Origin: Sipunculus nudus
Lineage: Eukaryota; Annelida; Sipuncula; Golfingiida; Sipunculidae
Assembly (NCBI GenBank): GCA_026874595.1
Contig: CM049315.1
Span: 36,412,164 to 36,476,163 of the forward strand
Direction of reading: 5' to 3'
Length of the DNA stretch: 64,000 bases
Shown: positions 9,811 through 60,685 of the stretch, piece after piece
Layout: the number at the start of each line of letters is the position of its first letter
Position numbering within the stretch: position 1 is the first letter of the stretch
Notes under the pieces: model-generated
Told to the model about the DNA's origin: nothing
The model's database searches: none
The model's input: the letters and a program-made list of their open reading frames with translations, nothing else
Position numbers and translations under genes: made by a program

Positions 9811-9875
9811 ATGACCACTTGCTGGAAACTCCTGTGTGTTATCTCTGTTTTCTTGATCTTGGACTCGGCATATTG
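9811..9875 (+). CDS. Receptor exon 1: signal peptide
   Basis: The ATG opens a frame reading [20 protein letters not shown]. This is a classic secretory signal, with a short polar start, a hydrophobic core and a small-residue cleavage region. The exon ends in phase 2 at a strong donor (GTAAGT at 9876). Joining to exon 2 restores a Cys codon just after the likely cleavage site, as expected for an EMI module placed directly behind a signal peptide. The following intron is 20 kb, so another small exon could be missed, but the junction needs none. Confidence 0.8.

Positions 9876-60685: not shown

Follow-up and report, generated by a model that had tools for sequence, protein, structure and literature searches.

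A probable receptor tyrosine pseudokinase gene with an unclassified ectodomain in Sipunculus nudus

A gene on the plus strand of a 64,000-nucleotide stretch of Sipunculus nudus DNA (the window; contig CM049315.1 of assembly GCA_026874595.1) is predicted to encode a protein laid out like a receptor, in which the kinase fold lacks catalytic residues. We consider it fairly probable that this is one intact gene for a single-pass receptor tyrosine pseudokinase, which would signal by pairing with an active kinase or by serving as a phosphorylated scaffold. From the N-terminus, the predicted protein consists of a signal peptide, an EMI-like module, two EGF-like modules, about 570 unclassified residues, a membrane helix, a juxtamembrane segment and the kinase fold. 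The signal peptide and the single membrane helix support the type I membrane receptor layout put forward in a preliminary description of this DNA.

The gene was rebuilt from the DNA, starting from stop-to-stop frames and the clear coding cores among them. Exons were chained by a dynamic programme with codon and splice scores and the remaining junctions were read from the DNA; exons 1, 2, 5, 13-15, 17 and 19, which the chaining script missed or misplaced, were placed by reading. The resulting gene occupies positions 9811-60685, with 22 exons encoding 1,146 residues plus the stop codon. Twenty introns are GT-AG and one is GC-AG, the GC donor being that of intron 5 (AAG/GCAAGT). Reading phases agree at 21 of 21 junctions, and the sole stop is the last codon. 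This independently rebuilt chain agrees with the 22 exons and both end points given in the preliminary description. The exon count and phase consistency stood, and the length of 1,152 residues claimed there became 1,146, so the two models must place at least one splice site a few codons apart. The features of the gene are as follows.

9811..9875, plus strand: exon 1, start codon and signal peptide (21 residues); most hydrophobic of four filtered candidate starts upstream of exon 2
29958..30032, plus strand: exon 2, first half of the EMI-like module; weak donor CGG/GTTTTT
30295..30383, plus strand: exon 3, second half of the EMI-like module; from chaining and reading
31856..31957, plus strand: exon 4, EGF-like module 1, six cysteines, C-x-C, phase 1-1
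32532..32648, plus strand: exon 5, EGF-like module 2, six cysteines, phase 1-1, GC donor
34450..34737, plus strand: exon 6, start of the unclassified ectodomain; no Pfam match, no PDB match
35354..35477, plus strand: exon 7, ectodomain; from chaining and reading
35627..35831, plus strand: exon 8, ectodomain; from chaining and reading
36478..36687, plus strand: exon 9, ectodomain; from chaining and reading
37477..38072, plus strand: exon 10, ectodomain, the longest exon, about 198 residues
39884..40007, plus strand: exon 11, ectodomain; from chaining and reading
41696..41857, plus strand: exon 12, ectodomain; from chaining and reading
42324..42360, plus strand: exon 13, short (12 residues), N-terminal to the membrane helix; placed by reading
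42692..42757, plus strand: exon 14, membrane-proximal stalk and start of the membrane helix
42881..43089, plus strand: exon 15, rest of the membrane helix, basic stop-transfer and juxtamembrane
43990..44209, plus strand: exon 16, acidic tyrosine-rich juxtamembrane, degraded glycine loop KEGKFA and K893; weak donor
44687..44794, plus strand: exon 17, alpha-C region, K910 at the glutamate position
47729..47877, plus strand: exon 18, hinge, alpha-D and alpha-E
49568..49708, plus strand: exon 19, HRRLAARN (codons from 49574) and GFG (from 49643); weak acceptor
57455..57584, plus strand: exon 20, six-residue insertion after APE, alpha-F aspartate kept
58494..58590, plus strand: exon 21, alpha-G region
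60559..60685, plus strand: exon 22, alpha-H to the C-terminus, short tail ending NEYYG, stop; phase-2 junction just before alpha-H
60798..60803, plus strand: AATAAA, candidate polyadenylation signal 113 bases 3' of the stop

The AATAAA hexamer is a weak candidate, because the two strands of the window together carry 173 copies of it. For exon 6, where a second plausible frame runs from 34465 to 34584, a frameshift was considered and rejected: the phase-1 frame is open throughout and fits both neighbours. When the protein was compared with the 64-kb window (tblastn, E up to 1), its own exons were recovered together with one chance match at 4729 (E 0.52).

Splice sites were scored with generic matrices and ranked against all GT or AG dinucleotides in the gene span. 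The median donor (20 GT sites) falls in the top 2.2% of all GT, and the median acceptor (21 sites) in the top 3.0% of all AG. Ranks worse than 10% occur at seven of these 41 sites, namely donors 2 (37%) and 16 (15%) and acceptors 19 (43%), 5 (18%), 15 (13%), 7 (11%) and 8 (11%). Coding potential was assessed with a codon usage model trained on exons 16-22 only (319 codons). All 15 upstream exons score above the mean of stop-free non-exon stretches, but only five of them (9, 10, 12, 13 and 15) pass the 5% level individually; for 8 of the 15, the chosen frame scores best among the six. The codon test thus lends moderate support to the upstream exons. Base-shuffled exons contain a mean of 57 stops, with a minimum of 35 in 500 shuffles, against none observed before the end, a control that is partly circular because the exons were selected as open.

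Two adjacent genes could in principle have been misjoined here, either an EMI/EGF ectodomain gene and a kinase gene, or a downstream gene and an exon 1 from elsewhere. The 20-kb intron 1, the 7.7-kb intron 19 and the weak donor on exon 2 would suit such an error. However, all exons lie on a single strand, their phases all agree (phase 2 of exon 1 fits exon 2 across the 20-kb intron, and each EGF exon is phase 1-1), the two halves are separated by the membrane helix, and there is no stop in the chain before 60685. We therefore regard a misjoined pair as very unlikely, and the earlier claim of a one-gene exon chain is supported by 22 exons in phase with no internal stop.

The window has the look of animal DNA, with split genes and many microsatellites; no tRNA (ARAGORN) or Rfam match at gathering score was found in it. 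Intron 1 holds a satellite-like array (19607-24296) in which a 52-base unit occurs about 90 times with 97% match and strong GC skew, as well as 52 copies of a 26-base tandem repeat (27130-28486) that is open over long stretches in several forward frames. Four copies of a 179-base unit are found in intron 17 (45054-45777), and a 115-base tandem repeat with 4.2 copies lies upstream of the gene (1181-1665). On the minus strand of intron 19, six long open reading frames (123-348 aa) occur in two reading frames between 50979 and 54401, the most downstream ending in a cysteine-rich stretch; they gave no Pfam match above cut-off, and we take them to resemble a broken mobile element. Diverged tandem repeats with listed periods of 28 to 109 bases reach the last exon (59687-60582), and their unit TTGTAGGCATGACGTGATGATGACGTGTTG, with its variants, corresponds to the acceptor and first codons of exon 22 (HDVMMTC). 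The start of exon 22 appears as if amplified upstream, and the gene model uses the last copy.

The extracellular part begins with a signal peptide of hydrophobic residues 1-21, found by a hydrophobicity filter and reading. Residues 23-76 contain eight cysteines in the pattern N-Y-C ... C-C-D-G-W, and by eye the last part of this stretch resembles the end of EMI domains. No Pfam EMI match is listed at E up to 10 (HMMER filters drop most matches above about 0.1), so the EMI-like label, drawn from the cysteine pattern, is weaker than first claimed. The EGF-like modules (residues 77-110 and 111-149) are each encoded by one phase 1-1 exon and have six cysteines in EGF order; Pfam EGF models score below cut-off on them. 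For residues 22-149 the best solved match is Jagged-1, with E 0.0013 for the whole stretch and 0.23 and 1.1 for single pieces. Of the EMI-EGF ectodomain first proposed, the EGF cysteine pattern is thus present, and the EMI part is without a listed Pfam match.

For residues 150-719, the PDB holds no matching chain at E up to 10, and Pfam gave no family above cut-off. This stretch draws only sub-threshold Pfam hits, from two PKD models (E 0.13 and 0.14); these would suit a beta-sandwich and prove nothing. Pfam lists no Ig, FN3 or cadherin match in the ectodomain, in a search that could miss a diverged Ig or FN3 fold, and no Venus flytrap match. Tandem FN3-like repeats, suggested by motif reading, found no support: six segment pairs scored no higher than their shuffled versions (p 0.17 to 0.74), in a test so insensitive that even the two EGF modules do not pass (p 0.10). 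Similar ectodomains presumably occur in uncharacterised proteins of invertebrates, and this unclassified ectodomain may define a domain family worth naming.

The tyrosine-kinase-like domain of the preliminary description was borne out by PF07714, which covers residues 864-1130 at profile positions 4-258 of 258 (E 5.7e-59, 200 bits), and we regard the predicted tyrosine-kinase fold as certain. In the best 60 of 2,024 matches, FGFR3/4, RET and KIT rank among the closest solved domains (139-151 bits), and an EGFR chain with two kinase copies comes first by summed score with 108.5 bits per copy. Among the matches listed, FGFR and VEGFR2 lead the single-kinase chains, and RET is at most 3 bits from FGFR3. 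A 106-residue stretch of the C-lobe has its best matches in EGFR, VEGFR2 and FGFR4 (best 60 of 1,039).

The aligned positions were assigned the catalytic roles generally known for kinases. Aligned to EGFR and FGFR3, HRD is replaced by HRR and DFG by GFG. In the FGFR3 alignment, the glycine loop GEGCFG becomes KEGKFA and the alpha-C glutamate becomes lysine (K910); the beta-3 lysine (K893), the catalytic-loop asparagine, WMAPE and the aspartate of alpha-F are all retained, and six residues are inserted after APE. The codons for R987 (CGC) and G1008 (GGA) are each two base changes from the nearest aspartate codon, and a single read error therefore cannot account for HRR or GFG. An alternative catalytic exon with intact HRD/DFG in introns 18-19 was sought and rejected, as a six-frame motif scan found none in a kinase context. 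That scan yielded no other HRD-like string on the plus strand, and one unrelated string on the minus strand (56244); neither of its two DFG-like strings, at 46333 and 55645, sits in a kinase context. The domain reads as a pseudokinase, and the earlier statement that it is one is supported by HRR, GFG, the alpha-C lysine and the degraded glycine loop. An unconventional but active kinase could draw on the kept beta-3 lysine and catalytic-loop asparagine; with the metal-binding and catalytic aspartates gone, and the alpha-C glutamate too, we judge it extremely improbable.

Loss of catalytic residues would also be expected of a young pseudogene, a decaying copy of an active receptor kinase whose frame is still open. 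The seven of 41 splice sites that rank worse than 10% would fit such decay, as would introns rich in repeats and mobile-element-like open reading frames. However, 1,146 codons run without stop or frameshift, and the losses fall at catalytic positions with structural positions kept, a pattern that random decay would not be expected to give. The intact frame would be consistent with the constraint proposed in the preliminary description, and we think a pseudogene quite unlikely.

A single membrane helix was placed at residues 745-770 by hydrophobicity and reading, leaving 377 residues on the cytoplasmic side; the juxtamembrane segment is acidic and rich in tyrosine, and the tail is very short. 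Tyrosines cluster in the juxtamembrane (Y830, Y842, Y845 and Y850), and a YY pair lies at the C-terminus (1144-1145). Between residues 927 and 1053 there is no tyrosine, so the activation loop is without one. A tail motif scan found no NPxY, YxN or YxxM and no ITAM-type pair. YxxL/I/M/V occurs at 863 and 927 only, both inside the kinase domain and with a spacing that is not ITAM-like, and PxxP is limited to two minimal strings (849 and 931). Given the absence of YxN, YxxM and NPxY and these two minimal PxxP strings, the scaffold step has little motif support.

A receptor pseudokinase of this kind may signal through a partner. The cysteine-rich N-terminus and long ectodomain may bind a ligand, a neighbouring cell or a matrix protein, and binding would place the receptor next to a tyrosine kinase with catalytic activity. 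The dead fold could then dock onto this kinase or act on it allosterically, and its well-kept C-lobe suggests a surface for binding. Y830, Y842, Y845, Y850 and the YY at 1144-1145 may be phosphorylated in trans, as in HER3 and EphB6. The routes described for those two receptors in a 2026 review (PMC13259870) are asymmetric pairing that activates the partner and trans-phosphorylation of tail or juxtamembrane tyrosines. The earlier suggestion of signalling by allostery is one that we infer by analogy with the known receptor pseudokinases treated in that review (PMC13259870).

A decoy or dampening receptor is a different possibility. Its ectodomain would bind ligand, and the dead kinase would serve only for folding, trafficking or sequestering an active paralogue. 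The activation loop without tyrosine, the tail without YxN, YxxM or NPxY, and the change of all three of the alpha-C glutamate, HRD aspartate and DFG aspartate are in keeping with such a role. However, the 106-residue C-lobe stretch is well kept (best 60 of 1,039 matches), more than a passive anchor seems to need, and we hold a decoy to be unlikely. A receptor that pairs with an active kinase remains our preferred reading.

Among the known systems, FGFR, VEGFR, RET and KIT are among the best matches to the kinase domain or C-lobe (best 60 of 2,024 and best 60 of 1,039, respectively), with EGFR near or at the top. FGFR, VEGFR, RET and KIT are active kinases, whereas the Sipunculus nudus kinase domain reads as a pseudokinase, and its ectodomain has no listed Ig or cadherin match. 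Since Pfam lists no Ig or Venus flytrap match, in a search that could miss a diverged Ig fold, nothing links the ectodomain with FGFR, and nothing with the Venus kinase receptors. From general knowledge of the kinase fold we assigned the position of alpha-H, just after the phase-2 junction of exon 22. The D-E insert is no longer than in the aligned solved FGFR3 chain, and a long insert is not evident. A phase-2 intron before alpha-H is reported for most human long-DE receptor tyrosine kinases (PMC8662651), and the Sipunculus nudus gene agrees with them in this intron.

MEGF10, Draper and CED-1 have an N-terminal EMI domain followed by EGF/NIM-like modules, a likeness to the present receptor by pattern only, and the tail of each has an ITAM or NPxY motif around one or more of its tyrosines (PMC8092387). 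In contrast, the Sipunculus nudus receptor has two EGF-like modules only, a kinase fold and no NPxY or ITAM. Membership of this group was rejected: a tail with neither NPxY nor an ITAM-type pair is not that of a MEGF/Draper receptor. The contrast with ITAM-type tails drawn in the preliminary description holds, as the tail scan found no such motif and a kinase fold takes its place.

Tie receptors combine an Ig, EGF and FN3 ectodomain with a membrane helix and a kinase, and Tie kinases are active. Their layout resembles that seen here in its EGF modules, further ectodomain, membrane helix and kinase, but Pfam, which could miss a diverged fold, lists no Ig or FN3 match in the Sipunculus nudus ectodomain. 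The oyster kinome names a Tie gene and counts 40 receptor tyrosine kinases and five tyrosine kinases deemed unique to oyster (PMC4883820), and is the kind of background against which the Sipunculus nudus gene could be placed. Precedents for unusual ectodomains are VKR (Venus flytrap; PMC4026697) and ApLRRTK (leucine-rich repeats; PMC4200351), both differing from this one, the latter reported to behave like canonical FGFRs. With these known, a new combination of ectodomain and kinase is not in itself revolutionary. An EMI-plus-kinase receptor is described in none of the titles and abstract openings among the matches listed, mainly from non-subscription literature. Within the PDB, Pfam and this literature, the earlier statement that no receptor tyrosine kinase family matches holds, and the stretch of about 570 residues is without a PDB match. 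More tentatively, and with somewhat more doubt than belief, the gene may represent a lineage-specific receptor family in which an engulfment- or adhesion-type EMI-like and EGF head and the unclassified ectodomain of about 570 residues were joined to a receptor tyrosine kinase, catalysis being lost afterwards under selection, so that it would signal only by pairing with active kinases.

The human receptor tyrosine pseudokinases (HER3, EphA10, EphB6, PTK7, ROR1/2, RYK and STYK1) are likewise single-pass proteins with a receptor tyrosine kinase fold and substituted catalytic residues. To our knowledge, none of them has an EMI/EGF ectodomain. The 2026 review counts eight such human receptors, whose signalling it calls understudied, and they provide a precedent for the catalytic losses and, for some, for trans-phosphorylation (PMC13259870). 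By the table in that review, EphA10 has GFG for DFG as found here, EphB6 and STYK1 have arginine at the alpha-C position where the Sipunculus nudus receptor has lysine, and none of the eight combines HRR, GFG, an alpha-C lysine and a kept beta-3 lysine (PMC13259870). A receptor of another animal lineage, differing from these in its lost residues and in its ectodomain, would offer a second test of what dead kinase folds keep for signalling. Silent receptors are a known class, and the Sipunculus nudus receptor looks like an unusual variant within it.
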